A stretch of 19,416 bases of DNA from Desulfobacterales bacterium (lineage in GTDB: Bacteria; Desulfobacterota; Desulfobacteria; Desulfobacterales; UBA2174_A): the NCBI GenBank assembly GCA_025454075.1, contig JALOPD010000044.1:1-19416 (forward strand), read 5' to 3'. Positions within the stretch are counted from its first letter, which is position 1. Each line of letters begins with the position of its first letter. This document shows, piece by piece, positions 4,888 through 19,416 of this stretch. The position numbers were made by a program, and so were the translations under genes. The notes under the pieces were generated by a model. That model worked only from the letters and a program-made list of their open reading frames with translations, was not told where the DNA came from and did no database searches.

Positions 4888-4911
4888 CGGGCCGGCCGGG
4901 CTCCATGCGCC

Positions 4912-5526: not shown

Positions 5527-5543
5527 GACGGGTTCCTTTCGTG

Positions 5544-6512: not shown

Positions 6513-6547
6513 TTTGTAACGTTTTTTCGCTCAAGGAATCTATACTT

Positions 6548-6646: not shown

Positions 6647-6677
6647 TTTAAAGGTGATATCCTCTCTCCTCCAAATG

Positions 6678-6703
6678 GGGTGGATGCCGAAAGGGATCCA
6701 CCC
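6678..6703 (-). terminator. Hairpin directly after the Rrf2 gene
   Basis: GGGTGGAT (6678-6685) pairs perfectly with ATCCACCC (6696-6703) around a 10-base loop, starting 4 bases beyond the Rrf2 stop codon. In the direction of transcription only a short ATTT follows, so an intrinsic terminator would be weak; it may instead stabilise the 3' end. On the plus strand it is followed by an A/T stretch. Confidence 0.4.
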
Positions 6704-6706
6704 TAT

Positions 6707-7147
6707 TTATTTCGGGGAAAGGCAGATGTCCGCCTGCGCATCCATGCCTTTGCCGAGAAGGTCCGCGAAGGTGATTTGATTCAGCCGGGCAAAAAAGGCA
6801 TTGGATGCCTCGACCCACAGAAAGCGCGTGGGGCAACGATCCGAGCGGTCGCAGGCCTTGGGGTTTTTTGAGCAAAAGGTCAGAAACGAGCCGCCCTCCA
6901 TGAGCGCCACCACCTCTCCCACCGTGATCTGCTCAGGGGGCTTGTTCAGCATGTGGCCTCCCTTGGATCCTCGAAAGCTCTTGATGTAATTCGCCCGCTT
7001 GAGCGGACGGATGATCTGCTCCAGGTACTTCAGCGAAATGTTCTGACGCCGGGCAATTTCCCCCAGTTGGATGGGGTTTTTGCCATGGTGTTGGGCCATG
7101 TCCAGAATCAGCCGCGTACCATATCTGCTGCGTGTGGACAATTTCAT
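6707..7147 (-). CDS. Rrf2-family transcriptional regulator with three-cysteine motif
   Basis: The 146-aa protein matches Rrf2/IscR/NsrR-type dimeric winged-helix regulators from its first residues: MKLSTRSRYGTRLILDMAQ, then the recognition-helix region ISLKYLEQIIRPLKRANYIKSFRGSKGG (38-64). C92, C99 and C105 sit where IscR and NsrR carry their Fe-S ligands (C92, C98, C104 in IscR), so it probably senses Fe-S status, redox or nitric oxide through a cluster. The spacing between the first two cysteines is one residue longer than in IscR. The start at 7147 is supported by GGAGGAGG six bases upstream. No isc genes adjoin it. Likely targets are itself and the dyad-rich leader of the next minus-strand gene, which is inference. 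Confidence 0.92.
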   Translation of the reverse strand: MKLSTRSRYGTRLILDMAQHHGKNPIQLGEIARRQNISLKYLEQIIRPLKRANYIKSFRGSKGGHMLNKPPEQITVGEVVALMEGGSFLTFCSKNPKACDRSDRCPTRFLWVEASNAFFARLNQITFADLLGKGMDAQADICLSPK

Positions 7148-7498
7148 TGGCGTCCTCCTCCAACTTTCTCCGACGATGTTTTGAATATGGACAACGACTC
7201 AGGCAGCCATGGCTTGGGGTCCAGGAGAAAAGCAACTGCCCGGATCTGATCGCCGCCGGCCTGATTCGTCCGTGTGGAAGGAGGCCGAGGGTTATGGCGC
7301 CTGTGCTCGCGGGATCCCTGAACCCCGAACCCTTGAAGCCAGAGCAGGTTCAAAGGGTATATAATTAATCCAGGGCAGTCAACTATGATTTCAATGCGGT
7401 GATTTCAATGCGGATAGACAGCTGAAGATGCCTGTCTTAAGTTGCCGACAGTTGATCAGCGGCGCAGCCATGGATCAACGGAATGGAGGATAGATGCT
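7148..7498. other. Divergent intergenic region (Rrf2 / small zinc ribbon)
   Basis: These 351 bases hold the promoters of the Rrf2 gene (minus) and the small zinc-ribbon gene (plus). A perfect TATAAT at 7360-7365, in a locally AT-rich patch, is the best -10 candidate for the plus strand. The nearest -35-like TTGAAG (7333-7338) is 21 bases away, too far for a standard promoter. The 14-base tandem repeat at 7386-7413 lies in the leader downstream of it. On the minus strand TTGTCC (around 7187-7192) lies about 40 bases before the Rrf2 start, without a clear -10. No other gene was seen here. Confidence 0.5.
7386..7413. repeat. Perfect 14-bp tandem duplication
   Basis: TGATTTCAATGCGG occurs twice head to tail (7386-7399 and 7400-7413) with no mismatch. 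It lies between a TATAAT box (7360-7365) and the start of the small zinc-ribbon gene at 7499. It could be a recent slippage duplication or a paired regulator-binding site. Confidence 0.8.
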
Positions 7499-7687
7499 AT
7501 GCCTAAAGACGACCCTGAAAACGTATGCCCTGGATTGGAGCTCAAATGCCCGGGCTGTCAGCGACCGCTCAAGGTCCCCAGAATCAAGGGCAACGAGGGT
7601 AAGCCGCTGATCTGCGGAGGCTGCGGGGAGCGATTCGATTGCGGCGAACTGGCCGCTGCGGCATCGGAACCGCTCCGGACGGCCTGA
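7499..7687 (+). CDS. Small zinc-ribbon protein
   Basis: This 62-aa protein has two CxxC knuckles, C17-x2-C20 (KCPGC) and C39-x2-C42 (ICGGC), about 19 residues apart. That is the layout of a single zinc ribbon, with a further cysteine at 48. The ATG at 7499 has GGAGGA eight bases upstream; an earlier in-frame start at 7442 has no ribosome site. Its function is unknown; such small ribbons often bind nucleic acid or other proteins. It converges with the NUDIX gene, whose end is 17 bases away. Confidence 0.75.
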   Translation: MPKDDPENVCPGLELKCPGCQRPLKVPRIKGNEGKPLICGGCGERFDCGELAAAASEPLRTA

Positions 7688-7704
7688 AGCCCCGGGCCGC
7701 CCCA

Positions 7705-8292
7705 TTACAAAAGCCCCGTTTTGGCGAAATGATCGAGGACCAGCCAGGCCTTGGCGTCGAACTTGAGCGACGCATCGTTGCACAGGCGTCCGGCTTCCTC
7801 CGGTGAGGCAAAGAGCACGTCGATGAACTCCGACGCTTCGTTGGCTTCCGCGGAAGGCTCTCCGTCGCACTCGACATAGACCATCGCTACGGATTCGTCG
7901 GTCATTCCGGCGGTCGAGTACACCGGCGGGCTCTCCTTTAGGAACCGCACCACATCGAGTCCGGTTTCCTCCTTGAGTTCGCGGCGCGTGGCCTCGGCGA
8001 CGGTCTCCCCCTCTTCCACCAGACCGGCAGGAAATCCGTATTCATACCCCCCGAGGGCAACCCGGAACTCGCGGGTGACCACGATTTTCTTCCTGCCGAT
8101 GTGGTACCCCGCGATGACCACGGCATCCGGGCGTTCGAAGCGCCCGTCGGCGCAGCGGGGGACCGGGAGCCGGGTGGCCATCACCCATGACCGCTGCGCA
8201 CCGTTTTTCGTCCGGTAGTGAAGCCGGAAAAGGCGCAGCCAGCCGGCATCCGCCAGAAGGTCCACGCGGTTGATCGTGATCGGGTGGTCCAT
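7705..8292 (-). CDS. NUDIX hydrolase (ADP-ribose pyrophosphatase-like)
   Basis: The 195-aa protein contains a complete NUDIX box at residues 90-112, G(x5)E(x7)REL(x)EE(x)GL, which binds Mg2+ and hydrolyses a nucleoside diphosphate linked to another group. The sequence before the box (VTREFRVALGGYEYGFPAGLVEEGE) resembles ADP-ribose/ADP-sugar pyrophosphatases, where the 'E/QFR...PAG' pattern is usual. That is the likeliest activity, but the substrate is not provable. The N-terminal 50 residues form the short beta-rich extension common in this group. The start at 8292 has GAGGAAA six bases upstream. It is cytosolic, stands alone on its strand, and converges with the small zinc-ribbon gene. Confidence 0.92.
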   Translation of the reverse strand: MDHPITINRVDLLADAGWLRLFRLHYRTKNGAQRSWVMATRLPVPRCADGRFERPDAVVIAGYHIGRKKIVVTREFRVALGGYEYGFPAGLVEEGETVAEATRRELKEETGLDVVRFLKESPPVYSTAGMTDESVAMVYVECDGEPSAEANEASEFIDVLFASPEEAGRLCNDASLKFDAKAWLVLDHFAKTGLL

Positions 8293-8561
8293 TATCGTTT
8301 CCTCGATATGAAAAAAAAGAAAACCATGTTATTGCGGCAGGTATCGGAAAGCCCCCCCGGAGCGGATCAACAGCCACCCACAGGCCATTCCACGCGTGCC
8401 TATCGGAAGGCCGGCTGAATGTCAACCGGGTGTAGTTTTAGGGTGGCTATCAACTGCCGGTTTGGTTCAAGTCGGGGCGTCAGGAAGCCGATAGGAATTA
8501 AATGAGCACCAGGGGGCGGCCGCGTTTTCATCACGCGATCCCTCAATGCGTTTAGATCGAC

Positions 8562-9116
8562 ATGGCAGAGGGTCGTTGCGCGCGCGGAAAGGCGGCGGAC
8601 AAGTTGGGCGAAGGCGAGCGGGACAGAACGGGCCGGTACACGGACGCGTATAGCGGCGATGAGAAGCCGCGTGCGGGACAGGACCGCCGGCGGCGGACGT
8701 TTCCCCCGATGCGCTACCTGATTGCGGGCGGCCGGCGCCGGAAGGTGCGTCGCCGGGAAGACCGGCAGCGCGTCGTCATCCTGGACCGGTACAGCCCCAG
8801 GCTTTTCGGATGCATTGTTGGGATTTTGATCCTGAGCCTGCTCGACGCCGTCTTGACCCTTTACCTGATCGAACACGGGTCCACCGAACTGAACCCGGTG
8901 ATGGACTATTTTCTAAAAAAAGGCCCGTTGCTGTTTACCGTCGCCAAATATGCGCTCACCAGCCTTGGCGTGGTCATCTTCCTGATGGTGGCCAACAGCG
9001 TCGTGCCGCGCACCAATTTCCATGCCAAAAAGCTCTTCCCTTACGCGCTTATCGCCTTCGGGGTCGTTATCGTGTGGGAAATCGTGCTGGTATTCATTCT
9101 GCTGCTTCGGGCTTGA
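8562..9116 (+). CDS. DUF5658-like small membrane protein
   Basis: The first 75 residues are very basic and hydrophilic. Three hydrophobic segments follow: around residues 82-104 (LFGCIVGILILSLLDAVLTLYLI), 124-146 (LFTVAKYALTSLGVVIFLMVANS) and 159-183 (FPYALIAFGVVIVWEIVLVFILLLRA). The motif SLLDAVLTLYLIEHGSTELNPVMDYFL is characteristic of DUF5658 proteins, whose function is unknown. The true start is uncertain: the upstream frame is closed by a TAG at 8553, and ATG 8562 has no ribosome site. ATG 8709 or GTG 8745 would remove most of the Arg-rich N-terminus and give a compact three-helix protein. It lies 57 bp upstream of the radical SAM gene on the same strand. Confidence 0.75.
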   Translation: MAEGRCARGKAADKLGEGERDRTGRYTDAYSGDEKPRAGQDRRRRTFPPMRYLIAGGRRRKVRRREDRQRVVILDRYSPRLFGCIVGILILSLLDAVLTLYLIEHGSTELNPVMDYFLKKGPLLFTVAKYALTSLGVVIFLMVANSVVPRTNFHAKKLFPYALIAFGVVIVWEIVLVFILLLRA

Positions 9117-9173
9117 CAGGATCGCTTTGCCGTTGCGTGCACTGAGAGGGGTCTTTTCCGACGGGTCAAGCGA

Positions 9174-11090
9174 ATGAACCATGTTCTCCTGCTGCAGCTG
9201 CCCATCCCCCGCCAGAACTTCGGGCGCAAGACCGGGAACATCCCGCTGGGGGCGGCCTGCCTGAAGCAGGCGGCCCGGGGCCTTCCCGGCGTGCGGGTCG
9301 ACCTCCTGCCGGAACTCCCGGCCTCCTGTCTCGGTGACGCGGCCCTCCTGAATCTGCTGAGCGGTCATACCCCCGACGTTTTAGGGTTCACGGCGTTCAA
9401 CTGGAATATAGAGCGCAGCCTGTATCTCTCAGAAAAACTGAAGGCCGCCGGGGGGCCCCGGGTCGTTTTCGGGGGGCCTGAGGTCACGCCCGACAACCCC
9501 CTCATCCGTTCGGCGCACGTGGATTTCCTGGCCTGCGGGGAGGGCGAAGCCGTGTTTCGAAGGCTTCTGACGGAGCCGGGCAGCTGGCAAACGGGCAGCG
9601 GTGGAGAAAGTGCGGCCGAGATCTTCCGAACGGCGGAAAGCCCCTACCTGAGAGGGGTTCTCGAGCCGGAGGCCGGGGACCTCATGCTCCTTGAGACTCA
9701 GCGCGGCTGCCCCTACCGCTGCGGGTTCTGCTTTTACAACAAGTCGCGGCAGGGGCTCGTTTTCGCGGAGGAGAGCATGCTGTTGCGGGCGGTGGCCTGG
9801 GCCGTCGAAAGACGGATCGCCGAGGTCTACCTCCTGGACCCCTCCCTGAATTCCCGGCCGCAGCTCAAAACGCTGCTGGCCGATATCGCTCGGTTGAACG
9901 TGAATCGGAGGGTCCGGCTGTTCAGCGAAATACGGGCGGAAGCCGTCGATGACGAACTGGCGGATTTGCTGGCGGCGGCCGGGTTTTACTGGTTTGAAAT
10001 CGGGCTGCAGAGCACCAACCCGAGGGCCCTGAAGCTCATGAACCGGCCGACCCGACTGGAGCGCTTTGTCGCAGGGGCTCAGCGGCTGAAGGCGCGCGGG
10101 ATCACCCCGAGCATCGATCTCATCATCGGCCTGCCCGGGGACGACCTGCAGGGCTTCATGCGCAGCGTCGATTTCGTGGCCGACCACGGCCTCCAGGACG
10201 ACGTGCAGATTTTCCCGTTGGCGGTGCTTCCGGGCACCGATTTCCGCAGGCGTCGTCGTGAACTCGGGCTGCGGTTCGACCCGCACCCGCCCTACACGGT
10301 GACCGGGACCCGCGGGTTCGGCCACGAAGATTTCCTGCTGGCCTACGACTACGCCGAGACCCGCCTCGACGCTGTTTTTTTCCCGTTGCCCGACCTGGAT
10401 GTGTCGTGGCGTGCGGGCGGCGCGGGGGGCGATGTGGAGAAGTCCTCGGATCTGTGCGTGCCGCTGGGCGGCCGGCGGTACGTGGCAAAACTGCTGCTGA
10501 ACCGTGAGCGGCCGTTCAAGGAGATCCGGCACCTGGCCCGGCAGCTGACCCACCCTTATCAAGTGCTGGTCGGGCCCGGGGTCGGTGTCGGTTATTTAAA
10601 AAGCGTCTTGATGATCGCCACCGGTGAAAACCCCTTCACGCCGCTTGAAATCGTTTTTTTCGAGCCGTCCGAGCCCCCCCGGACCCGCGAGCTTCTCGCG
10701 GCCGTCCGCCTGCGACGGCCGCATTTCCTGGACGGAGACCTGCGCTTTCTTTTTGCGACACCCGGCAACCGCGCGGTCCTGTTCACATTGGTTTCGGCAG
10801 ACCCGGCGGCGCGGTTTCAGGGCGACATGGAGCGGCAGGCCTTCTGGTGGCGCCGGCCGGCGCTGCCGGAGCTGAAAGATCTGGCCGGGTTTGAGGAGTT
10901 GGACGGGATTTTGATCGATTCCCCGGTCTCGGCCCGGGAGATCGCCGCATGGCAGGATCGCCTCGGCCGGGAGGCGGCTGAAAAGCACCACATCAGTTTC
11001 GCCGATGCGCACCTGCAGCGGCGCTGGCTGCTGCTTGCCAGCCCCGATGAGTATGTGGAGCAGGTGATGAGCTGGATCAGCCAGGAATGA
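9174..11090 (+). CDS. B12-binding-type radical SAM protein
   Basis: This 638-aa protein has a Rossmann-like N-terminal domain (about 1-135, with GFTAFNWNIERSLYLSEKLK and VVFGGPEVT) typical of cobalamin-binding radical SAM proteins. The radical SAM core follows at about 172-370. The [4Fe-4S] ligands are C179-x3-C183-x2-C186 (GCPYRCGFC), and later strand motifs are visible (EIGLQSTNPRALKLMNR, DLIIGLPGD). The C-terminal 250 residues are unassigned and resemble the extra domains in BchE/MiaB-like family members. The DxHxxG motif of base-off cobalamin binders is not seen in the N-terminal domain. No strong ribosome site precedes ATG 9174, though the frame is well supported. Substrate unknown; methyl transfer or another radical modification is possible. 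Confidence 0.9.
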   Translation: MNHVLLLQLPIPRQNFGRKTGNIPLGAACLKQAARGLPGVRVDLLPELPASCLGDAALLNLLSGHTPDVLGFTAFNWNIERSLYLSEKLKAAGGPRVVFGGPEVTPDNPLIRSAHVDFLACGEGEAVFRRLLTEPGSWQTGSGGESAAEIFRTAESPYLRGVLEPEAGDLMLLETQRGCPYRCGFCFYNKSRQGLVFAEESMLLRAVAWAVERRIAEVYLLDPSLNSRPQLKTLLADIARLNVNRRVRLFSEIRAEAVDDELADLLAAAGFYWFEIGLQSTNPRALKLMNRPTRLERFVAGAQRLKARGITPSIDLIIGLPGDDLQGFMRSVDFVADHGLQDDVQIFPLAVLPGTDFRRRRRELGLRFDPHPPYTVTGTRGFGHEDFLLAYDYAETRLDAVFFPLPDLDVSWRAGGAGGDVEKSSDLCVPLGGRRYVAKLLLNRERPFKEIRHLARQLTHPYQVLVGPGVGVGYLKSVLMIATGENPFTPLEIVFFEPSEPPRTRELLAAVRLRRPHFLDGDLRFLFATPGNRAVLFTLVSADPAARFQGDMERQAFWWRRPALPELKDLAGFEELDGILIDSPVSAREIAAWQDRLGREAAEKHHISFADAHLQRRWLLLASPDEYVEQVMSWISQE

Positions 11091-11189
11091 TGATCAAGGG
11101 GTCATGCCGGGATACCCGGGTGCAGTCCCTAATCTTGAGAGGCCGGACTTGAAGCCGACAAGCAATTAGGCTCAATGTCGGGTTGTGTA

Positions 11190-11218
11190 TTGACAAAAGG
11201 CACACGTATAGTTAAATT
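11190..11218 (+). promoter_or_regulatory. Promoter of the toxin-antitoxin pair
   Basis: A consensus TTGACA (11190-11195) and a TAAATT (11213-11218) are separated by 17 bases. The first start codon is at 11225, only six bases after the -10 box, and there is no ribosome site before it. Transcription would therefore begin at or next to the ATG, suggesting a leaderless message. Confidence 0.6.
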
Positions 11219-11224
11219 CCTTAT

Positions 11225-11503
11225 ATGAAACCATTCGAGTGGGATGAAGACAAGAATCGATGGTTGAAACGGGAACGCGGTGTGTCTTTTGAACAGATTG
11301 TTTTCAGCATTGCCAATGGAAATCTGCTCGATGTGATTCGACATCCGAATCAGGCCAAATACTGCGGACAGTGGGTATATGTGGTTGAGGTCGACAACTA
11401 CGTTTACTTGGTTCCTTACGTCGAAGAAAGAGAGTCTATTTTTTTAAAAACGCTTTTTCCAAGTCGTAAATATACAAAACGACATCTTCGAGCGGGGCCA
11501 TAA
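11225..11503 (+). CDS. BrnT-like toxin of a type II toxin-antitoxin pair
   Basis: The 92-aa protein starts KPFEWDEDKNRWLKRERGVSFEQIV, the BrnT-type N-terminus (F.WD..KN....+.GVSFE). It ends with a basic IFLKTLFPSRKYTKRHLR segment like that of BrnT/RelE-fold ribonuclease toxins. The middle (RHPNQAKYCGQWVYVVEVDNYVYLVPYVEE) matches a subgroup often annotated simply as 'toxin'. Its stop overlaps the antitoxin start by one base (TAATG), and toxin-first order is normal for brnT/brnA. The pair has clearly lower GC and more AAA/GAA codons than the surrounding genes, consistent with horizontal gain. The ATG has no ribosome site. Confidence 0.8.
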   Translation: MKPFEWDEDKNRWLKRERGVSFEQIVFSIANGNLLDVIRHPNQAKYCGQWVYVVEVDNYVYLVPYVEERESIFLKTLFPSRKYTKRHLRAGP

Positions 11504-11778
11504 TGAAACACTTCAACAAAGATGAAAAAGAGTTGATGAAATCCATCGAAAATGAAAAATGGATTTCCGTTGGTAACGTGGAAGATGAGGTTAGAAAGGC
11601 AAGAGCAGCTGCTTATGCGACGGTTGCCAAGAGCGAACGCATGAACATTCGCTTATCGCCCAACGACCTGAAAAGGCTCAAGGTCAAGGCATTGGAAGAG
11701 GGAATGCCCTATCAGACCCTGGTTTCCAGTATCATCCACAAATACGTGACGGGTCGGCTTACGGAACAACGCGAATAA
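11503..11778 (+). CDS. BrnA/CopG-like antitoxin
   Basis: This 91-aa protein has an acidic, flexible N-terminal half (residues 1-45), which would be the toxin-neutralising part. The C-terminal half, SERMNIRLSPNDLKRLKVKALEEGMPYQTLVSSIIHKYVTGRL (46-86), has the ribbon-helix-helix pattern: a beta strand, then two amphipathic helices split by GMPYQT. Such antitoxins usually bind their own promoter, here the TTGACA element just upstream of the toxin. It is translationally coupled to the toxin by the TAATG overlap. Low GC like its partner. The next plus-strand gene starts 33 bases later but has normal GC and is probably not part of the module. Confidence 0.8.
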   Translation: MKHFNKDEKELMKSIENEKWISVGNVEDEVRKARAAAYATVAKSERMNIRLSPNDLKRLKVKALEEGMPYQTLVSSIIHKYVTGRLTEQRE

Positions 11779-11811
11779 ATCTGATTTCATGTGAGGAGTT
11801 GAAGGATAATC

Positions 11812-12018
11812 ATGCCCATCTACGAGTATCAGTGCAAAGCCTGCTGCCATTGTTTCGAAGAGCTTGTCTTTTCATCCAGCGCCCCGAAGCCCAAGTGCCC
11901 CAAGTGCGACTGCGGGGACGTGCAGAAGCTCATGTCGGCCGGCTGCGTGCGCCCCCAGGGAATCCCCACGGGGTCCGGCGGCTTCAAAGCCCCCGCCTGC
12001 AAACCCTCCGGCGGCTGA
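11812..12018 (+). CDS. FmdB-family zinc-ribbon protein
   Basis: The 68-aa protein shows the FmdB/CxxC_CxxC_SSSS signature: MPIYEYQCKAC at the N-terminus, C8-x2-C11 and C29-x2-C32 (KCPKC), then the VQKLMSAG ending of the domain. The family was named after a putative formylmethanofuran dehydrogenase regulator, but its role is not established; it binds zinc. The C-terminal tail is Gly/Pro-rich. The ATG is preceded by AAGGAT. A second, longer member of this family lies at 16829-17083. Confidence 0.88.
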   Translation: MPIYEYQCKACCHCFEELVFSSSAPKPKCPKCDCGDVQKLMSAGCVRPQGIPTGSGGFKAPACKPSGG

Positions 12019-12184
12019 CGGATATAGACCTTCCCCAGTTGGGGGAAACGGTTTCGCTTAAATCCTAATTGCCGGGTGCGCATCGTTTCGGGGAAGAGCC
12101 GCTACGGTCCCTCGGCTTCCTGCCTCTTTACGATAGGCTCACACAACTTGAACCCAAGAACGGCGGAGAGTTGCCCCACCCAGT

Positions 12185-12224
12185 AAAGAATCAGCGGGCT
12201 GCGCGAGCAGACCGCTGATTCTTT
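12185..12224. terminator. Strong hairpin terminator between FmdB and UPF0173 genes
   Basis: Thirteen-base perfect arms (AAAGAATCAGCGG at 12185-12197 and its complement at 12212-12224) flank a 14-base loop. The right arm touches the stop codon of the minus-strand hydrolase gene, and the arms carry A and T runs at their ends. It can serve as a bidirectional terminator for the hydrolase and for plus-strand transcription from the FmdB side. Confidence 0.8.
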
Positions 12225-12907
12225 TATACTTCGATGGTATCCCCCGGCTTCATCACCGCCACCTTGGCCGCGGTCTCCTTTTCCACCCGGGCGGCCCAGG
12301 CGTCCGGGTCCTGCTTGATCACATCAAAGGTGTTGTAGTGGATGGGCACCACGCGTTTGGGCTGGATCAGCTTCACGGCCCGCAGGGCGTCGTCCGGGCC
12401 CATGGTGAAGTTGTCGCCGATCGGCAGGATGGCGAGATCGATCCCTTCCTCGCCGATCAGTTTCATGTCGCCGAAGAGCCCCGTGTCGCAGGCGTGGTAG
12501 ATCTTCCTGCCGTCGATGTAGAACAGGAACCCGCAGGGGTTCCCGCCGTAAGAGCCGTCCGGCAGGGCCGAGCCGTGCAGCGCGAGGGTCAGTTTGACCC
12601 GTCCCCAGGGATAGTCGAAGCCCCCCCCGAGGTGCTGGGGGTGGACGTTTTTGACCCCTTGCGCCACCATCCAGTTCTGGATCTCGAAATTGGAGATCAC
12701 CGTCGCGCCGGTGCGCCGGGCGATGGCCACCGTGTCGCCCACGTGGTCGCCGTGTCCGTGGGAGACCAGGATGTAGTCGGCCGAGACGGAGTCGGCCTTG
12801 ACGGGGGCCAAGGGGTTGCCGGTGAGGAAGGGGTCGATCAGGAGCTTGGCCTTGGGGGTTTGGATCAGGAAGCAGGCATGGCTGAACCAGGTGGCTTTGA
12901 GCGTCAT
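12224..12907 (-). CDS. UPF0173-type metal-dependent hydrolase (metallo-beta-lactamase fold)
   Basis: The 227-aa length and layout match UPF0173/UlaG-like hydrolases. The metal-binding motif SHGHGDH is at residues 49-55 (H50, H52, D54, H55). An early WFSHACFLI (H10) and LLIDPFLTGNP are family marks, and further metal-site residues are seen in HGSA (about 110) and HACDTGL. It is predicted to be a cytosolic binuclear metal phosphodiesterase or lactonase-like enzyme of unassigned substrate. The start at 12907 has a strong AAAGGAGG five bases upstream. It is monocistronic: a 13-bp stem terminator begins at its stop codon. Confidence 0.92.
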   Translation of the reverse strand: MTLKATWFSHACFLIQTPKAKLLIDPFLTGNPLAPVKADSVSADYILVSHGHGDHVGDTVAIARRTGATVISNFEIQNWMVAQGVKNVHPQHLGGGFDYPWGRVKLTLALHGSALPDGSYGGNPCGFLFYIDGRKIYHACDTGLFGDMKLIGEEGIDLAILPIGDNFTMGPDDALRAVKLIQPKRVVPIHYNTFDVIKQDPDAWAARVEKETAAKVAVMKPGDTIEV

Positions 12908-13332
12908 GGGGTCCTCCTTTCGGTGAGGGGCTTTTAAAGCGTCGGATGACGGCGAGGCCGAGCCCCGGGTGCACGACAGCCGTTCATCGGCTTCACACCC
13001 GGCTCCGGCGGCTATTGAACCAGGAGAAAGCCGTAGCGGTTTTGCTCATCCGTGGCAGATAGGTTCCTAATAGTACAAGGGCCCCCGGGTGTCAAAACGG
13101 GCGTTGTCGATAAAATCGGTAAAATACAAAATTGTCTGAAAACTCCTAGATAATTTACACTTATGTCATGTTTCGAAAGGGGCGGGCCGGCGCCAGGCCG
13201 TGACAGTGAAGATATAAGACTCAGAAATAAATGCTAAATACAAGCTGAACGGAAAATAAGTTCGGATGGCATGAATGTTGATATTGAAGAGCGTGTGAGA
13301 GCGTCGGTGGATTCCAGAAGAAAGGATTGAAC
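12908..13332. other. Intergenic region between UPF0173 and small CxxC gene
   Basis: This 425-base divergent gap holds the leader of the hydrolase gene (minus) and of the 63-aa gene (plus). The left part carries the G/C-rich structured element at 12965-13002. The part from about 13100 to 13260 is strongly AT-rich (repeated TAAAAT, TAGATAAT and AATAAAT motifs) and probably holds promoters, but no well-spaced -35/-10 pair could be fixed. No gene was found in it. Confidence 0.5.
12965..13002. repeat. Nested hairpin in the leader of the UPF0173 gene
   Basis: CCGGGTG (12965-12971) pairs with CACCCGG (12996-13002). Within it AGCCG (12978-12982) pairs with CGGCT (12988-12992) around a TTCAT loop. 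Complementarity continues imperfectly outside through GAGCC/GGCTC. No T tract follows on either strand. On the minus strand it would lie about 60 bases upstream of the hydrolase start. Confidence 0.4.
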
Positions 13333-13524
13333 ATGAAACTCGAGGCGTTCGTGAACAAAGATGAGAAGAAGGCCGAGGAGGCCGTCAAGTGCAGCTGCTG
13401 CGATCGAACGCTGAAAAACTCCTCGGAATGGGTCCGCAGCCGCAAGAGCGCGATGTGCGTCTCCTGCTACGAGAGCCTGCTGAACCCCTTCCCGAAGTGC
13501 TGCAGCGGGGGCGCGCTCCTTTAG
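13333..13524 (+). CDS. Small cysteine-rich CxxC/CxxC protein
   Basis: This 63-aa protein begins with a charged helix (KLEAFVNKDEKKAEEAVK). It then shows C20-x2-C23 (CSCC) and C42-x2-C45 (CVSC) separated by a basic linker with WVRSRKS, and a final CC pair at 56-57. The layout suggests a zinc finger; no family was recognised. ATG 13333 has AAAGGA six bases upstream; an in-frame TTG at 13327 is less likely. It is followed by a very stable hairpin (13688-13727). Confidence 0.7.
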   Translation: MKLEAFVNKDEKKAEEAVKCSCCDRTLKNSSEWVRSRKSAMCVSCYESLLNPFPKCCSGGALL

Positions 13525-13687
13525 CATCGGGACGGCGGGACCCGTTGTTTCCAGCGGGGCTTTCCGGCGCTGGCTGCCTGTCCGGAGCCTTGCGGGTTGC
13601 CCCGTTTCCTCCAAAGCACGCGGCGTTTTGCCCACCCAAACCATCAGACCGGCTTCCTGCCGCGAAACCCTCCCTCCTCGTGGCAGA

Positions 13688-13727
13688 GAAAATGAATCGC
13701 CGCCCGCAAGGGCGGCGATTCATTTTC
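13688..13727. terminator. 18-bp perfect hairpin with GCAA tetraloop (bidirectional terminator)
   Basis: Arms 13688-13705 and 13710-13727 are perfectly complementary over 18 bases, capped by GCAA, a GNRA tetraloop. The distal ends are GAAAATGAAT and ATTCATTTTC, so a T tract is available on either strand, and the proximal eight pairs are G/C-rich. It lies 164 bases beyond the small CxxC gene and 82 before the next plus-strand gene. Confidence 0.85.
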
Positions 13728-13808
13728 AGCCAACCGTATTTTAACCGGAAATTAGCAAAATCAAAACAAGCCGGCGGCATCCTTGCCTGAAACCATGGAG
13801 GCAATGAC

Positions 13809-14018
13809 ATGCTGAAATCAGATAGGACGCCCGGCGAAGTCAAATTTTTCCGCAACGCCAACACCGTGTTCATGTTCGACCCGGAAACCTTTCAGGTCTA
13901 TCGATACGATGCCGGTCGGTGGGTCCAATCAAGCGACCTGAAGCTGCGCGAAGACATTCGCCTTTGCTCCGTCGAGGTGAGCCGCAGGGAGGCCTTGCAG
14001 CTCGCCTGCGGGCCATAA
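13809..14018 (+). CDS. Small protein of unknown function
   Basis: The 69-aa product has no recognised domain. The sequence (VKFFRNANTVFMFDPETFQVYRYDAGRWVQSS) reads like a small beta-rich domain with alternating aromatic and polar residues. It has one early basic patch and two cysteines (53 and 67). The ATG at 13809 has GGAGG upstream with a slightly long spacer. It converges with the flavoprotein-SCP2 gene, whose end is 44 bases away. Codon use matches its neighbours; existence is likely but not certain. Confidence 0.6.
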   Translation: MLKSDRTPGEVKFFRNANTVFMFDPETFQVYRYDAGRWVQSSDLKLREDIRLCSVEVSRREALQLACGP

Positions 14019-14062
14019 AAGCCGATTGAATTCCGGGGCGAAAATTTCAGATCCCGTGAGGG

Positions 14063-15226
14063 TCAGCGCGGGAACAGGGTTTTGAGCTTGAGCAGCAGCG
14101 ATAGATCGCCTTCGACCGTGTATTTCCCGCTCATGAAGGCCTGCTGACCGTCGAGTTCCCCGGCGGCGACGGCCGTCCACACATCCTCGGGCGTGCGGAT
14201 CACGATGCCGGGCGCTGCCGCCGGCCCTTCGTGGTAGCTGCAACTCTCCCCGCTGATTCTGAGATGGGCCTGAAACGGCGCCTTCCCCGACACATCGAAT
14301 TGATAAACCGCCTCGAGGCCCCGGGCGGCTGTCGGGTCGAAGCCGAGCGGCATCGATTCCAGAAGCTCCCGGCAGTTCGTCGAGCGGGCGGGGCCAGGGG
14401 CTGAAGCGGTCTGCCGGTTTCCGGGCTTCTTTCCGGTCCGCCGGGAGCGGTGCTGCGCGATGGTCTCTTGAATCCAGGCCTTGCGCATCCCGGGGTCAAA
14501 CGGCGTCGTTTCCCGTTCCTGCTGGACATAGGCTTCGAAATCCCGGTAGAGGCCGTGCTTTTCCCAGTGTTCGAAGTCGTTTTTCATGATCGACTCCCGG
14601 TGCTCGCGGACCAGCGCCCCCATGAACCGGTAAAAAACGAGGTCGCTGTCGGTGGCCGGGTAACGTCGTTTTTCCTTCACCGCTTGCGCCAGGTCCCGGG
14701 CCAGGTCGTGGGCGCGCGCCTCCACCGCGGGCCGGCCCAGGAATTCGCCGGGCCCGGTGGCCAGCGCGGTGAGGCGGCCCACGCTGAAGGCGCCGAAGAC
14801 CCGCAGCAGGTTCCCCAAGTATTCAGCCGTCTGGGTTTCGCCGTAACCGGCCGACACGCTCACGGCCAAGCCCGGCTTCCATCGGGGTCGCGGCTTGTGG
14901 CCGAAGGCCAGGCTGCGGTCGAGAAAGGTTTTCATCTGGGCCGTGACCTGCAGGAAATAGACGGGCGAGGCCAGGATGACGCCGTCGGCCGCCAACAGGC
15001 GTTCGACGAGGCCGGCGTGATCGTCCTGGATCCAGCAACGGCCCTTTTCCATGCAAACCCCGCAGCCGATGCAGTAATCGATGTCCCGGTCGCAGAGGTG
15101 GATGACCTCGAGGGCAAGGCCGTTTTCGGCAAGGGCCGGCCTGAGCATCTCGAGCATCATGGCGGTGTTGCCGATGCCGGCGTGGGGCGACCCGTTTAAG
15201 GCCACGATGGTGAAGCGGCTTTCCAT
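14063..15226 (-). CDS. Iron-sulfur-flavoprotein-like reductase fused to an SCP2 sterol-carrier domain
   Basis: Residues 1-185 are a flavodoxin-like NADPH-dependent FMN reductase domain: IVALNGSPHAGIGNTAMMLE (7-26) is the FMN phosphate-binding loop and ILASPVYFLQVTAQMKTFLDR (84-104) the second flavin motif. C52-x2-C55-x2-C58-x5-C64 (CIGCGVCMEKGRC) matches the compact cysteine motif of archaeal/anaerobe iron-sulfur flavoproteins, suggesting a [4Fe-4S] cluster. A charged linker follows, with residues about 190-260 resembling NAD(P)H-oxidoreductase tails. Residues 285-387 form an SCP2-like lipid-binding domain (GKAPFQAHLRISGES, GELDGQQAFMSGKYTVEGDLSLLLKL). ATG 15226 is preceded by AAGGAG; the frame continues upstream to 15376 without a ribosome site. 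A role in redox chemistry on a lipid or acyl substrate is inference. Confidence 0.88.
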   Translation of the reverse strand: MESRFTIVALNGSPHAGIGNTAMMLEMLRPALAENGLALEVIHLCDRDIDYCIGCGVCMEKGRCWIQDDHAGLVERLLAADGVILASPVYFLQVTAQMKTFLDRSLAFGHKPRPRWKPGLAVSVSAGYGETQTAEYLGNLLRVFGAFSVGRLTALATGPGEFLGRPAVEARAHDLARDLAQAVKEKRRYPATDSDLVFYRFMGALVREHRESIMKNDFEHWEKHGLYRDFEAYVQQERETTPFDPGMRKAWIQETIAQHRSRRTGKKPGNRQTASAPGPARSTNCRELLESMPLGFDPTAARGLEAVYQFDVSGKAPFQAHLRISGESCSYHEGPAAAPGIVIRTPEDVWTAVAAGELDGQQAFMSGKYTVEGDLSLLLKLKTLFPR

Positions 15227-15261
15227 TTTTTGTTTCTCCTTTTGAAAAGGCGTGGCTCCAG

Positions 15262-15420
15262 TCAGGGTTCCTTCTGGAGGCGGTTGCGCAGAACCAGGCC
15301 CGCCGCCGTTAGCAAGAGAGCAAGCAGCCGGGTCTGAGCGGAGGTGAAGCCGGTCAGTTCGGACAGAAGGATCCACGCCGCAGAAACCATGGCGGGGACC
15401 TGGCGGATCAGTCGAGCCAC
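15262..15420 (-). CDS. Possible small membrane protein coupled to MerR gene
   Basis: A 52-codon frame starts at GTG 15420, 13 bases inside the end of the MerR gene, with GAGGAG eight bases upstream. It stops 35 bases before the flavoprotein start. The product has a hydrophobic stretch (RLLALLLTAAGLVL) flanked by basic residues, consistent with one membrane segment or amphipathic helix. A longer frame from 15519 has no ribosome site and overlaps MerR more. The call rests on position and ribosome site only; no homology was recognised. Confidence 0.45.
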   Translation of the reverse strand: MARLIRQVPAMVSAAWILLSELTGFTSAQTRLLALLLTAAGLVLRNRLQKEP

Positions 15421-16157
15421 GGTTCGCGCTCCTCGCTCTCGGGGGTCGGTGTCTCTTTCAGGTCCTTCATGGCCGCCACCCGGTGCTGGAACAGACGGTC
15501 GATGATGTAGGCTCGGCACATGCGGGCGTTCTTTACCATTCGGGTCGTTGCCGCCGCATCCTGCTGATAGGGCAGTAAGCCGGTCATCCGGTTGCGCAGC
15601 GCCATTTCCTGGTCGACGATCTTTTCGCCCAGATCCGCATAGTAAGAGAGGTCTCTCGCCCGGATGCCGAAATGGAGAGCGTCCAGGTACATCCGGCCCA
15701 TGCGGACGTCCTCCGCATCAAACCGGCCCTCGTCGAGCGGCAGCAGCAGCCGCGTCCGCTGCAGCTCTTCCAGTTGGCTTTCGTTCAGGCCCGTTTCGCG
15801 GCAGAAGGCTTCGGCATCGAGCAGACGCCTGGTGCCGCCTGGGCCGAAGACTTCCTCGTTGAGTTCGAGATAGACCCCGAGTTCGGCCCCCCGATCCGTG
15901 TCATCGAGGCAGCGTTTGATTTCAGAAAGCGTGAGGCGATGGCGCTCCTGCATCTGTTGGATGAGCCGGATGCGTTCGACGCAGGCCGGGTCGTAATAGG
16001 CCATGTTGGGGCTCGTCTTGCGGGGGTGGGGCAGGAGCCCCTGGCCGATGTAGTAGAGGATGGTGGATTTGGGTACTCCGGTCGCCGAGGCGAGTTCGTT
16101 CATTTTCAACCCTTGGGCCGGTCCGCCTGAATTACGTTTTGAGTGGCGTTTGTGCAC
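15408..16157 (-). CDS. MerR-family transcriptional regulator
   Basis: The 249-aa protein has a MerR winged helix-turn-helix at about residues 17-88: MNELASATGVPKSTILYYIGQGLLPHPRKTSPNMAYYDPACVERIRLIQQMQERHRLTLSEIK. The remainder is a long helical sensor region (about 100-235) with two scattered cysteines. The compact C-terminal cysteine sites of the metal-sensing MerR proteins are absent, so it more likely senses an organic ligand. The start is a GTG at 16157 in this call; ATG 16103 with AAGGG six bases upstream is an alternative that trims the N-terminus to the HTH. It probably heads an operon with the small ORF and the flavoprotein-SCP2 gene and may control it and itself through the dyad at 16326-16350. 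Confidence 0.9.
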   Translation of the reverse strand: MHKRHSKRNSGGPAQGLKMNELASATGVPKSTILYYIGQGLLPHPRKTSPNMAYYDPACVERIRLIQQMQERHRLTLSEIKRCLDDTDRGAELGVYLELNEEVFGPGGTRRLLDAEAFCRETGLNESQLEELQRTRLLLPLDEGRFDAEDVRMGRMYLDALHFGIRARDLSYYADLGEKIVDQEMALRNRMTGLLPYQQDAAATTRMVKNARMCRAYIIDRLFQHRVAAMKDLKETPTPESEEREPWLD

Positions 16158-16305
16158 GCTGCAGCTCTTATGAAGGGTGCTGTTCGGGTTTGTTTAACGG
16201 CGTGAAGCGTCGTTGATTGGTTCCTCGCCGATTGCCTTTTCACGCCGGTCGGCCGAAAGGTTTGCGTCCGGGCGGAGCCCGCTGAAGAATCGACGCGATA
16301 GTTCC

Positions 16306-16350
16306 CAAATATTCTAAAATTAGATAAGTGTCAAGTGTTGCTTCACACTT
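16306..16350 (-). promoter_or_regulatory. Promoter and candidate operator of the MerR operon
   Basis: On the minus strand a consensus TTGACA (16334 to 16329) is followed after 17 bases by TATTTG (16311 to 16306), giving a plausible sigma-70 promoter. Overlapping the -35 box are three hexamers: AAGTGT at 16326-16331, AAGTGT at 16333-16338 and their complement ACACTT at 16345-16350. Together they form an inverted plus direct repeat, a likely site for autoregulation by the MerR protein. The -10 box is weak. Confidence 0.5.
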
Positions 16351-16405
16351 TATTTTTAAGAAGGCACCGGGGCAAATTGTGCTTGCGGCAGGGGGTGTCA
16401 GCCGT

Positions 16406-16798
16406 CTATTTACTCGATTGAGAAAAATCCGGGGGCGATAGGCGTCTTATGCGGGACAGGACTTCAAGTGCGTCGGATTTTGCCGGGTCAAGCGGGAGCT
16501 GGGCCATTATTCCGAGCCCCTCGCCGGCATCGTGAAAATCCTCTGGGGAAAGGTCGCTGATCACAACGGTGTTGATCATGGCGTTGATCGGCAGCAAACG
16601 TCTCACCAGGTCGAGCCCCGGTATGTCCGGCAGGTTGTGGTCGATGATCACGGCGAGGGGCGGGTGCTTCATGACATCGGCGATGGCCGCCGTGCCGTCT
16701 TCCGCCCACGCCACCTGAATGTCCTGCTGCTCTGCAAGGGATTGAGCGAATTCGGCCAACCGCCTGCGACGGGGCGAGACGATTAAAATACGGTGCAT
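16406..16798 (-). CDS. Stand-alone response-regulator receiver, atypical phosphorylation site
   Basis: The 130-aa protein is a CheY-like receiver domain with no output domain. The phosphoacceptor is D53 (LAVIIDHNLPDIPGLDLVRRL) and the Ser/Thr switch position is S81 (TVVISDLS). The acidic pair that binds Mg2+ is replaced by S8-P9 (ILIVSPRRRR), and the conserved lysine before the beta5 proline is L101 (AQLPLDP). Phosphorylation by the usual mechanism is therefore doubtful, and it may be a pseudo-receiver acting by protein contact. It is the last gene of the ORP/iron-sulfur cluster, 30 bases after the FmdB-like gene. No sensor kinase lies in the window. AAAGG precedes the start. Confidence 0.85.
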   Translation of the reverse strand: MHRILIVSPRRRRLAEFAQSLAEQQDIQVAWAEDGTAAIADVMKHPPLAVIIDHNLPDIPGLDLVRRLLPINAMINTVVISDLSPEDFHDAGEGLGIMAQLPLDPAKSDALEVLSRIRRLSPPDFSQSSK

Positions 16799-16828
16799 GC
16801 TGAAACCTTTCGTTTCCTACGAAACAGG

Positions 16829-17083
16829 TCAACCCTGCGTGCGGCCGCAGCACGAGCCGGGCCCGGCGCACCCGGCCTCGGCCGGCCGGCTGCCGCAGCA
16901 GCCGTGGTCCCGCGGACCCGGCATGTTCCGGCGTCCGCTGCCGGTCAAGGTGCTGGTCGGCGACATCAGCTTTTCCGGCTGAGACCCGCCGCAGGCCGGG
17001 CATTCCAGCGGGGAGTCCGGCGCCAACACCAGGGATTCCCCCCGATAACCGCACTTATGGCAGTGGATGTCGAATATCGGCAT
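16829..17083 (-). CDS. FmdB-like zinc ribbon with Cys-rich tail
   Basis: This 84-aa protein starts MPIFDIHCHKCGYRGE, the FmdB signature. Zinc knuckles are C8-x2-C11 and C28-x2-C31 (CPACGG) and the domain ends EKLMSPTS. The tail from residue about 58 is unusual, with five more cysteines in GCCGSRPAEAGCAGPGSCCG, which could hold a second metal or cluster. It overlaps the last 29 bases of the IscU-like gene and has AAAGGAA before its ATG, indicating translational coupling. A larger frame extends upstream in the same phase but is only a shadow of the IscU-like gene. Confidence 0.85.
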   Translation of the reverse strand: MPIFDIHCHKCGYRGESLVLAPDSPLECPACGGSQPEKLMSPTSTLTGSGRRNMPGPRDHGCCGSRPAEAGCAGPGSCCGRTQG

Positions 17084-17528
17084 CGAGTGTTCCTTTCTTT
17101 TCTGCGGCGCGGGGCGGCGGTTGAGAGGATGCGCCCTGCCGCCCATAGCAGTCTGCGATCGCCTCCCCGAGGGTATTGACGGCCAGTCGCGCGCAGTGCA
17201 GGTGGTCCTCCGGAAGGCCGCCCAGCTCGGCCTCCACATCCTGAGGTGTGATCTCAAGCGCCTGCTCCAGCGACCGGTTCCAGGCGAGTTCGGCCATGGC
17301 GCTGGCGCAGGCGATGGTGAAGGCGCACCCGCGGGGCATGTGCCGGATATCGCTGATCCGTTCGCCGTCCACTTTGAGGGTGATTTCGACGGAGTCCCCG
17401 CACTGGCCGACCCCGACGGCACGGCCGGCCGGCTGCTCGATAACCCCTAAATGGGACGGCACATTCACGTGCCGAATGAAGCGGTTGTCGAGTTTGCTGA
17501 AATCCATCTCAGGTCGATGCGCTTTCAT
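17055..17528 (-). CDS. IscU/NifU-N-type iron-sulfur cluster scaffold-like protein
   Basis: The 157-aa protein resembles IscU: CGDSVEITLKVDGERISDIRHMPRGCAFTIACASAMAEL carries the first two scaffold cysteines (C43, C68), and LPEDHLHCARLAVNTLGEAI carries the third (C112), each in its expected context. IscU-type proteins hold nascent [2Fe-2S]/[4Fe-4S] clusters. The N-terminal approximately 40 residues and the proline-rich C-terminus (about 135-157) lie outside the core. No cysteine desulfurase gene is next to it, so sulfur may come from elsewhere or the scaffold may serve a different metal centre. The start at 17528 has GAGG six bases upstream. It follows the NifX-like gene by 23 bases and overlaps the FmdB-like gene. 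Confidence 0.85.
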   Translation of the reverse strand: MKAHRPEMDFSKLDNRFIRHVNVPSHLGVIEQPAGRAVGVGQCGDSVEITLKVDGERISDIRHMPRGCAFTIACASAMAELAWNRSLEQALEITPQDVEAELGGLPEDHLHCARLAVNTLGEAIADCYGRQGASSQPPPRAAEKKGTLDADIRHPLP

Positions 17529-17551
17529 GCGAACCTCGGCCGGTCATCGAT

Positions 17552-17947
17552 TTATAAAGCCCCCGGCTGATGACCGCCCCCTCCGCCGCAGGTGTGCTGC
17601 TGGCTGAACTCCGCCAGCCGTCCTTCGTTGAACGCCTGGACGGCTTCGGCCACCGTGCGGGCCTGCCCGCAGTGGAAGACCTGGATCCCCATCTGCTGGA
17701 ATCCCATGAGGGGCCGCATGCCCATGCCGCCGGCCAGCAGCACCCGCACCCGGTTCTGGGCCAGATGGCTTACCGGCGCCATGCAGCCGCCCTGTTCGTG
17801 GGGGACGTTGGGGATGACGTTGACGGATGCGACCTGCCCGTCGTTGACGGTGACCAGGGTGTAAAGCTCACAGTGCCCGAAGTGGGCGCCCACGGCGGCA
17901 TCCAGGCCCCCGGGGAGTTCGGAAGGAACGGCAACGATGGTGCTCAT
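17552..17947 (-). CDS. NifX/NifB-type, orange-protein-like cofactor-binding protein
   Basis: The 131-aa protein belongs to the dinitrogenase iron-molybdenum cofactor biosynthesis family (NifX, NafY, NifB C-terminus, MTH1175, ORP). Family marks are IVAVPSELPGGLDAAVGAHFGHCELYTLVTV at the N-terminus, and VRVLLAGGMGMRPLMGFQQMGIQVFH in the core. The C-terminus ends THTCGGGGGH-like (CGGGGGH), a common feature of ORP relatives. These proteins bind metal-sulfur clusters; the D. gigas orange protein carries a Mo-Cu-S cluster. ATG 17947 is preceded by AAAGGAGT; the upstream ATG at 17971 has no ribosome site. It sits 58 bases after the MinD-ferredoxin gene, as in known orp operons. Confidence 0.88.
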   Translation of the reverse strand: MSTIVAVPSELPGGLDAAVGAHFGHCELYTLVTVNDGQVASVNVIPNVPHEQGGCMAPVSHLAQNRVRVLLAGGMGMRPLMGFQQMGIQVFHCGQARTVAEAVQAFNEGRLAEFSQQHTCGGGGGHQPGAL

Positions 17948-18005
17948 GACAGGTTTACTCCTTTCACTCATTGTGTTGTGGATGTCGGTTTCGGACTATC
18001 GCCGC

Positions 18006-18893
18006 TCAAACGGCTTTTGCCTTCTGGTTTCCCAACTCTACGATGCGGCGCCACACCCGCCGGATCTCGGCAGACACTCCGTCGGCGTGGAACTCGGTGA
18101 CCGCCTGCCGCAGGACCATGGCCTCGGTGACGGCCGGATCGTAAGGCAGCGTAGCGAGAAATTCAACCTGAGCCTCGCCGCACCAGCGCCGGATCCCGCT
18201 GGTGTTCGCGGGGTTCAGGTCCGCCTTGTTCACGATCACCCCGGTGGGGATCTTGAAATGCCGGCAGAGGTCGGCCACGCGTTCGAGGTCGTGAAGCCCC
18301 GACGGCGTGGGCTCCGTCACCAGGACGGCGAAATCGGTCCCGCTGAGCGAGCTGATCACCGGGCACCCGATCCCGGGCGCGCCGTCGGACAGGATCAGCG
18401 CGCGGCCGGTCTGCTGCGCCCGTTCTCTCGCCTTCCCGCGCAGCAGCGCCACCAGCCGGCCCGAATTTTCAGCCCCCGGAAAGAGCTGGGCATGGACCAT
18501 CGGTCCGAAGCGCGTGCGCGACAAAAACCACTCCCCGCAGTGGCGCTCCGGAAAACCGATGGCGCCGACCTGGCAGAAGTGCACGCACACCTTGCAGCCT
18601 TCGCACTTGACGGGGTCGACGGCGAAGCCCGCCGCCTGGCTCGTGACCGCTCCGAAACGGCACACCTCGGCGCACACGCCGCACCCGTTGCAGGCCGCGA
18701 GGTCGATGACCGCTTCATGACCGGAGAAAAAATCCTCCCGGACCTCGTTCTCCGGCTGAAGAATCAGGTGCAGGTCCGGCGCGTCCACGTCCAGGTCGCA
18801 GATGACGGCGTCTGCGGCCAGGTGTGCGAAGGCCGCCGTAAGCGACGTTTTGCCGGTGCCGCCCTTGCCGCTGATGACGATGATTTCAGGCAT
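18006..18893 (-). CDS. MinD/ParA-type ATPase with inserted 2x[4Fe-4S] ferredoxin domain (ORP-type)
   Basis: The 295-aa protein has a deviant Walker A, SGKGGTGKT (8-16), typical of MinD/Mrp/NifH-like ATPases, and the ICDLDVDAPD switch I. A ferredoxin insert follows with two clusters of ligands, C68-C71-C74-C78 and C97-C100-C103-C107. Later motifs (LILSDGAPGIGCPVISSLSG, VLVTEPTPSGLHDLER, GVIVNKADLN) match the family. In Desulfovibrio such proteins (ORP3/ORP4) are encoded beside the orange protein. It overlaps the upstream ATPase gene by eight bases, with AGGAGGT eight bases before its ATG. It probably couples ATP hydrolysis to cluster transfer or protein interaction; which one is not known. Confidence 0.92.
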   Translation of the reverse strand: MPEIIVISGKGGTGKTSLTAAFAHLAADAVICDLDVDAPDLHLILQPENEVREDFFSGHEAVIDLAACNGCGVCAEVCRFGAVTSQAAGFAVDPVKCEGCKVCVHFCQVGAIGFPERHCGEWFLSRTRFGPMVHAQLFPGAENSGRLVALLRGKARERAQQTGRALILSDGAPGIGCPVISSLSGTDFAVLVTEPTPSGLHDLERVADLCRHFKIPTGVIVNKADLNPANTSGIRRWCGEAQVEFLATLPYDPAVTEAMVLRQAVTEFHADGVSAEIRRVWRRIVELGNQKAKAV

Positions 18894-19416
18894 GCGCGGT
18901 GACCTCCTGCTGCCGTGAGGCCGCGGCCAGGCCGCGCAGTCCGGCCATCAATGCCGTAAAGGTATTGCGCATGTCCGGCAGGGTTTCCGCCAGCACCTGC
19001 CCCTTGGAGTAGGCTTCCGCCAGCCGGCGCTCGAAGGGGATTTCGGCCAGGATCGGCAGTTGTCGGCTGCGGCAGTAGTCCTGCACGGAGTGATCCCCCA
19101 GCCCCGCGCGGTTGATGACGGCGCCCATGGGTTTGCCGAGGGGAGCGAAGGCTTCGTGGGCCAACCGGAAATCATGGAACCCGAAAGGGGTCGGCTCGGT
19201 GACGAGCAGAATCAGGTCGCTCGGCAGCACGGCGTTGACCGCCGGGCAGCTGGTGCCCGGCGGGGCGTCGATGATGACGTCGGAGGCCGCCTCTTGGCGG
19301 GTTTGCTCGAGCTTGGCGATGACGGCCCGCATCAAAGGGGGGCTCATGGCCTCCCCGACGCGCAGCCGGCCCATGAAAAACCCGATTCGGCCGGCGGCGC
19401 TTCCCCAGGAGATCTC
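18886..19416 (-). CDS. Second MinD/ParA-type ATPase of the ORP cluster (5' end outside window)
   Basis: The frame is open from the right edge of the window to a TGA at 18886, so only the C-terminal 176 residues are present and the start is missing. Visible motifs are IGFFMGRLRVGEAMSPPLMRAV, DVIIDAPPGTSCPAVNAVLPSDLILLVTEPTPFGFHDFRLA and MGAVINRAGLGD, the second half of a MinD/Mrp/ORP-type ATPase. Whether it carries an N-terminal ferredoxin insert like its neighbour cannot be seen. Its stop lies inside the start region of the downstream ATPase gene (8-base overlap), so the two are translationally coupled. Such tandem non-identical ATPases are typical of orp operons. An ATG at 19374 is inside the domain and is not the start. 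Confidence 0.9.
   Translation of the reverse strand, partial: EISWGSAAGRIGFFMGRLRVGEAMSPPLMRAVIAKLEQTRQEAASDVIIDAPPGTSCPAVNAVLPSDLILLVTEPTPFGFHDFRLAHEAFAPLGKPMGAVINRAGLGDHSVQDYCRSRQLPILAEIPFERRLAEAYSKGQVLAETLPDMRNTFTALMAGLRGLAAASRQQEVTAHA

Follow-up and report, generated by a model that had tools for sequence, protein, structure and literature searches.

The DNA analysed here, a stretch of 19,416 nt that we call the window, comes from a Desulfobacterales bacterium (UBA2174_A; assembly GCA_025454075.1, contig JALOPD010000044.1, positions 1-19,416 of the forward strand). Between positions 16406 and 19416 it carries six open reading frames (ORFs), all on the minus strand, which encode two MinD/ParA-type ATPases (MinD1 and MinD2), a NifX protein of the orange protein (ORP) type, an IscU-like scaffold, an FmdB-type protein and a stand-alone pseudo-receiver. 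We confirmed this six-gene module and found it conserved, chiefly among sulfate reducers and related bacteria. A first-pass annotation made from the letters alone had proposed a dedicated module for metal-sulfur cofactor assembly. This is still the most economical reading. We assign a probability of about 0.5 to the view that the cluster encodes a special-purpose complex for metal-sulfur cluster assembly and delivery that works in an ORP-like manner. The six genes are:

MinD1, 18886-19416, minus strand: MinD/ParA-type ATPase whose N-terminal part falls outside the window, switch-II motif DAPPGTSCP.
MinD2, 18006-18893, minus strand: ATPase with deviant Walker A motif GKGGTGKTS, inserted 2x[4Fe-4S] ferredoxin and switch-II cysteine (DGAPGIGCP).
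NifX/ORP-type protein, 17552-17971, minus strand: PF02579 (3.2e-18, over the cut-off).
IscU-like scaffold, 17055-17528, minus strand: NifU_N domain (PF01592, 1.6e-25, over the cut-off) with C43, D45, C68 and C112 plus a fourth cysteine, C74.
FmdB-type zinc ribbon, 16829-17083, minus strand: TIGR02605, cysteine tail CCG...CAGPGSCCG.
Stand-alone pseudo-receiver, 16406-16798, minus strand: PF00072 (1.7e-9, over the cut-off), D53 kept, acidic pair and lysine lost, motif FHDAGEGLG.

MinD2 overlaps MinD1 by 8 nt and the FmdB gene overlaps the scaffold gene by 29 nt. The remaining gaps measure 23 nt (NifX to IscU-like), 30 nt (FmdB to receiver) and 34 or 58 nt (MinD2 to NifX), the last depending on whether NifX begins at its first ATG or at an alternative second one (17552-17947). 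Gene places, overlaps and the range of gaps (23-58 nt) all agree with the first-pass annotation. From the spacing and the conserved gene order we infer that the six genes are co-transcribed. Between 15200 and 19416, a search for sigma-70 promoters returned none and terminator-like matches were at chance level (4 vs 3.5 expected); no RNA family reached the gathering score in the window, and PADLOC gave no match for the five cluster proteins other than MinD1. Pfam and NCBIfam searches upheld the domain calls made earlier for the MinD pair, for the eight ferredoxin cysteines of MinD2, arranged in two CxxCxxCxxxC motifs, and for the NifX and IscU-like proteins. In MinD2 both CbiA (1.3e-12) and Fer4 (2.6e-10) exceeded their cut-offs. 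MinD1 scored 23.6 bits in Pfam, below the cut-off of 27.1, probably because its ORF is cut by the window edge; its full-length relative lies at 7636-8523 of locus L002. Among the relatives of NifX in the Protein Data Bank (PDB) is the ORP structure 2wfb (E 2.8e-4).

Conservation was examined by scanning contigs with an alignment, A2, of 32 IscU-like proteins (the window protein and 31 others, taken from 120 that were listed out of 674 matches). It turned up 87 relatives across 126 matched stretches, and the best 80 loci were kept. A receiver of the same family, defined by a score over 110 (no other receiver domain of these loci exceeds 53), is found just 3′ of the IscU-like gene in 45 of the 80 loci. 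Its distance past the matched IscU domain is 45-463 nt, and once 1111 nt. These 45 loci contain MinD2 in 41 cases (38 on the same strand), MinD1 in 34, NifX in 43 and FmdB in 19, and several of the absences are cuts at contig ends (e.g. L025, L032). None of the 16 loci with Omnitrophota or Omnitrophica in their titles yielded a same-family receiver; 14 of them carry MinD2. The DNA to the right of the window could be read from the relatives L002 and L003, where MinD1 is complete; L001 breaks off inside MinD2. Among the relatives whose upstream stretch is long, L002 is the nearest. There, two DUF134 genes, one of them fused to a NifX domain, precede the MinD1 counterpart, and a divergent hybrid kinase and a sigma-54 (PAS) activator are also encoded upstream.

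The scaffold resembles the IscU/NifU proteins of the ISC, NIF and MIS systems in its NifU_N domain, in C43-D45, C68 and H111-C112, and in its best profile match among solved structures, NifU-1 (4eb5, E 1.7e-34); its predicted model has a pLDDT (predicted local distance difference test) of 83.8. C43, D45, C68 and C112, which include the three cluster cysteines recognized earlier, occur in 80/80 scaffold rows, and C74 in 75 of the 80; the conservation of C74 is partly selected, one of the three search patterns having contained it. This fourth cysteine, the switch-II cysteine of the ATPases and the identity of the lost receiver residues go beyond what had been noticed at first. C74 is found in 32/32 proteins of A2, a set not chosen by C74; no cysteine stands at this position in any of 17 canonical IscU/NifU proteins encoded in the same genomes. 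The window protein differs from canonical scaffolds in its fourth cysteine and in its phylogenetic place: the 17 canonical rows form one clade (100/100) and the window belongs to a separate clade of 52 rows (support 99/95), in a tree that had few columns for 100 rows. It also misses all four NCBIfam cut-offs listed for IscU, NifU and SufU (at best 84.1 of 187.9 bits). A further difference concerns its relatives, which have no desulfurase gene nearby. A gene of the desulfurase family (class V aminotransferase, PF00266 at 1e-30) lies within 5 kb of 15/17 canonical scaffolds and of 0/29 divergent ones, in a count that covers 16 genomes of relatives (G015 left out) and in which the 29 include paralogues outside the clade of the window. 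A canonical scaffold is also present in 14 of the 17 genomes searched.

IscU-like genes were also found in other settings. In Omnitrophota, a DUF2099 gene stands directly before the IscU-like gene (L056, 8930-9904, with members in L059, L060, L063, L067 and L073) and comes after the MinD pair wherever the stretch reaches it; we take DUF2099 to be the methanogenesis marker 8 family. Genes for Fur, DUF5320, NifX, a methyltransferase, a radical SAM protein and a ZIP transporter lie nearby in various Omnitrophota loci (Pfam, one representative each). A second type of cluster around an IscU-like gene, without the MinD pair or this receiver, occurs in L030, L036, L039, L041 and L047; it comprises a DUF134/NifX-group protein, the IscU-like protein and Mrp. 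A DtxR-type repressor joins them in four of the five loci and so, again in four, does an FmdB with a cysteine tail. In L099, L100, L101, L106, L114 and L117 the IscU-like gene is near Mrp or MrpORP and MinD genes, again without this receiver.

Both ATPases carry a cysteine in switch II. The motif DxxPGxxCP was present in 182 of 183 ferredoxin-MinD ORFs, one ORF having no such motif, and the cysteine in 0/38 Mrp ORFs, 36 of which have aspartate there and two of which were caught elsewhere by the pattern; a few ORFs are counted twice since some fetched stretches overlap. Two [4Fe-4S] ferredoxin motifs were found in 176 of the 183 MinD-homologous ORFs. The switch-II cysteine lies seven residues past the aspartate, which we take to be the same spacing as that of the NifH cluster ligand Cys132.

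The closest described system is the ORP complex of Desulfovibrio (operons orp1 and orp2: Orp3, Orp4, Orp5, Orp8 and Orp9). According to PMC6345978 and PMC3897727, Orp3 and Orp4 are MinD proteins with two [4Fe-4S] motifs and a C-terminal amphipathic helix (the latter in PMC6345978), Orp5 is homologous to a [2Fe-2S] protein, Orp8 is an ORP and Orp9 is MrpORP, which is polar in location and hands iron-sulfur to Orp3-Orp4-Orp8; the complex is under sigma-54 control. Our cluster shares with it the MinD pair with two [4Fe-4S] motifs each (read in MinD2 of the window and in full-length MinD1 of L002 and L003), and the NifX/Di-Nase (PF02579) protein; in L002 a sigma-54 PAS activator lies near the cluster. 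It differs in adding the IscU-like scaffold, FmdB and the pseudo-receiver, all three of which are missing beside the MinD pair in L115 and L116, loci that an ORF-by-ORF reading assigns to the classic ORP type. No MrpORP (the Mrp-Di-Nase fusion, NF041136) was found in the stretches of L002 and L003; L001 and the window are cut upstream. In the genome of L002 (G001), the Mrp matches (383.8 and 377.8 bits) remain below the 450-bit cut-off. Because of the missing MrpORP around L002 and L003, we class the cluster as ORP-like rather than as an ORP operon, and of the earlier label "ORP-type" the common MinD pair and NifX stand whereas a plain orp operon does not. Mrp is near the receiver in four of the 45 receiver loci (L007, L012, L015, L049). 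The idea that MrpORP and the receiver exclude each other was discarded, at least 4 of the 28 genomes with a receiver (see below) having MrpORP at the curated cut-off. Orp5 may be related to one of the proteins of this cluster. The inserted ferredoxin described in PMC9012536 and PMC12068725 sits in another protein. Among the papers listed by literature searches, none was recognised as a description of the scaffold-FmdB-receiver set, which is weak evidence of absence, as the founding orp paper of 2011 was outside the collection searched.

In a first alternative, an ORP-type complex positions the septum or the chromosome, the MinD pair does the work and IscU, FmdB and NifX only mature its own clusters. 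The membership of both ATPases in the MinD family speaks for it, as do the polar location of MrpORP and the proposal, found in PMC6345978 and PMC4672049, that ORP proteins act in cell division. In both MinDs of the window, moreover, a C-terminal segment chosen by eye is more amphipathic than most shuffled versions, its level being attained by about 4% and 3% of 2000 shuffles. However, two ferredoxin motifs and a near-invariant switch-II cysteine per ATPase, together with further cluster and metal proteins, would be excess machinery for positioning, and 219 of 247 genomes from the phylum have no match to the receiver. We therefore consider positioning possible but doubtful as the function of the module.

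The extra cysteine tail of FmdB reported by the first-pass annotation is present in the window protein, which scores above the cut-off of NCBIfam TIGR02605 (36.2 vs 31.3 bits) but below that of Pfam (29.7 vs 34.4). The tail, CCG...PGSCCG, occurs in 25 of 33 FmdB matches, a count partly self-selected since the window protein served as seed of the profile, and 24 of the 25 have an IscU-like gene no farther than 3 kb away. Such a cysteine-rich tail would fit an operon for metal homeostasis or stress with no role beyond storing or buffering Fe, Zn, Cu or Mo. Two other points go in the same direction, namely the link between the ORP family and a Mo-Cu sulfide cluster (cited in PMC6345978) and the following gene, which adjoins the cluster in the window:

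MerR-family regulator, 15408-16157, minus strand, 3′ of the receiver.

Yet two ATPases and a scaffold would be superfluous for buffering, and a MerR match adjoins the receiver only in L001 and L002 among the 80 loci. Mere buffering is thus improbable. The MerR gene is probably a separate unit. Elsewhere in the window, a single ORF at 14063-15376 combines NADPH-dependent FMN reductase and SCP-2 domains; by eye, the product of 6707-7147 looks like an Rrf2-type regulator with clustered cysteines and that of 9174-11090 resembles a B12-binding radical SAM protein.

The receiver has a confidently predicted CheY fold (AlphaFold pLDDT 92.6), and the PDB fold matches shown are ordinary receivers. Standard receiver chemistry requires an acidic pair and a lysine. 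The acidic pair is found in 0/46 receiver rows, position 8 being T, S or A in all and position 9 Glu in three, and lysine at position 103 (placed by alignment with Spo0F) in 0/46, with a lysine one residue later in four. The alternative of a true response regulator, phosphorylated by a two-component system and switching the module, can point to D53 (45/46), to Ser/Thr81 (46/46) and to the hybrid histidine kinase and sigma-54 activator upstream in the near relative L002, but we reject it on its residues as very unlikely, since acidic pair and lysine are lost in all 46 and conservation is strongest at H89, E93, G94 and G96 (46/46 each), which belong to the family motif FHExxEGLG. The receiver version in L107 (7538-7903) matches nothing in Pfam at E values up to 0.001 and would likely be annotated as hypothetical.

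A profile of the 46 receivers was run against 247 genomes drawn from the phylum. It matched in 28, all of which also match the IscU-like profile somewhere, a profile that catches canonical scaffolds as well. In 15 of the 28, an IscU-like match and the receiver share a contig and are no more than 6.4 kb apart; two cases cannot be told (G050 and G251, receiver at the contig end). The 23 receiver neighbourhoods fetched from these genomes (including L098, around a second, weaker receiver of G134) contain MinD in 18 and NifX in 21; L002, L006 and L015 come in addition to the 23, and G070 and G211 were left out. In the 11 genomes where no IscU-like gene is near the receiver (L087, L090, L103, L104 and L107-L113), ferredoxin-MinD and NifX are kept in 10; L110 has NifX only. 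Because 10 of 11 such loci retain MinD and NifX, we conclude that the receiver belongs with the MinD-NifX core, to which the IscU-like protein and FmdB are an add-on. Scaffold, FmdB and receiver had been seen as joint additions to an ORP set; they are indeed conserved neighbours, but the receiver as a part tied to IscU was ruled out. With ORF starts set mechanically as the longest ORF, the receiver and the adjoining MinD ORF share 4 nt in L091 and L092 and are 16 nt apart in L104, 10 nt in L112 and 3 nt in L113. Among the scanned ORFs the two were only adjacent, and no receiver-MinD fusion was present.

In two proteins, the IscU-like protein and the receiver form a single chain. These fusions, P0207 (L015, 9944-10750) and P0210, are 54% identical over 96% of the query. 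The nearest relatives of each are unfused and differ between them (P0208, P0209 and L026 for P0207; P0260 and L007 for P0210), and therefore the sequences suggest two fusion events.

TadZ/CpaE (PMC13170226) offers a parallel, in which an atypical receiver is proposed to place the MinD-like ATPase to which it is fused. The pairing of an atypical receiver with a MinD/ParA ATPase is shared; in our cluster, however, the two are separate genes and the ATPases carry ferredoxins. For the sulfur source, an analogy is provided by SMS, described in PMC12192291 as iron-sulfur assembly on sulfide without a desulfurase. ATPase-linked assembly and sulfide as sulfur source are its points of likeness, but SmsCB consists of SUF-type proteins, which are other families, and the analogy extends to the sulfur source only.

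In the assembly and delivery complex that we favour, the IscU-like protein would build or hold a cluster on its three canonical cysteines and C74, with sulfur coming from free sulfide or from a housekeeping desulfurase acting in trans. FmdB would supply or buffer the metal. The MinD1/MinD2 pair, with ATP, its ferredoxin clusters and the switch-II cysteine, may reduce, move or release the cluster, and NifX may carry the product. The pseudo-receiver could act, by analogy with TadZ/CpaE, as an adaptor that needs no phosphorylation, docking on both the MinD pair and the scaffold and determining where in the cell they sit. The cluster chemistry, the ATP-driven delivery, the adaptor role and the target enzyme are all putative.

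Several observations weigh against this reading. The 11 receiver genomes without an IscU-like gene nearby and the presence of FmdB in only 19/45 receiver loci indicate that the core may need neither scaffold nor FmdB. C74 is found in 75 of the 80 scaffold rows and absent in five, and the partial selection for C74 and the paralogues among the 29 divergent scaffolds, both mentioned above, count here too, as does the proposed role of ORP proteins in cell division. Both fusions keep the start methionine of the receiver, so that each could stem from a sequencing error at a short gap; L015, the source of P0207, is a metagenome-assembled genome, and P0210 is a protein-database entry. No CpaE/TadZ chain was among the receiver fold matches shown, which proves nothing. 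Matches to a -24/-12 promoter did not exceed chance: L002 had 0 where 1.2 were expected, and L003 had 3 against 2.1.

A bolder version envisages a new machine in which an IscU paralogue with four cysteines and no desulfurase of its own takes up sulfide directly and a NifH-like, ATP-gated ferredoxin-MinD pair, anchored by the pseudo-receiver, reduces or inserts the cluster and so matures a specific enzyme of sulfate reducers; we regard it as unlikely. DsrA, of dissimilatory sulfite reductase, is encoded in 26/28 receiver genomes compared with 96/219 of the others (Fisher p 3.4e-7, with no control for kinship). This association is not peculiar to the receiver, because genomes with MrpORP are also enriched (31 of the 39 listed, out of 40 tallied over the cut-off), and it is a lead only.

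The making and placing of special metal-sulfur clusters in strict anaerobes are poorly known, and the function of the ORP complex itself is only putative. The conserved scaffold, FmdB and pseudo-receiver are concrete partners that can now be put to the test. Specific physical contacts can be predicted from the IscU-receiver fusions and from the adjacency of receiver and MinD genes, and reliance on sulfide or on the housekeeping desulfurase from the lack of a desulfurase gene nearby.

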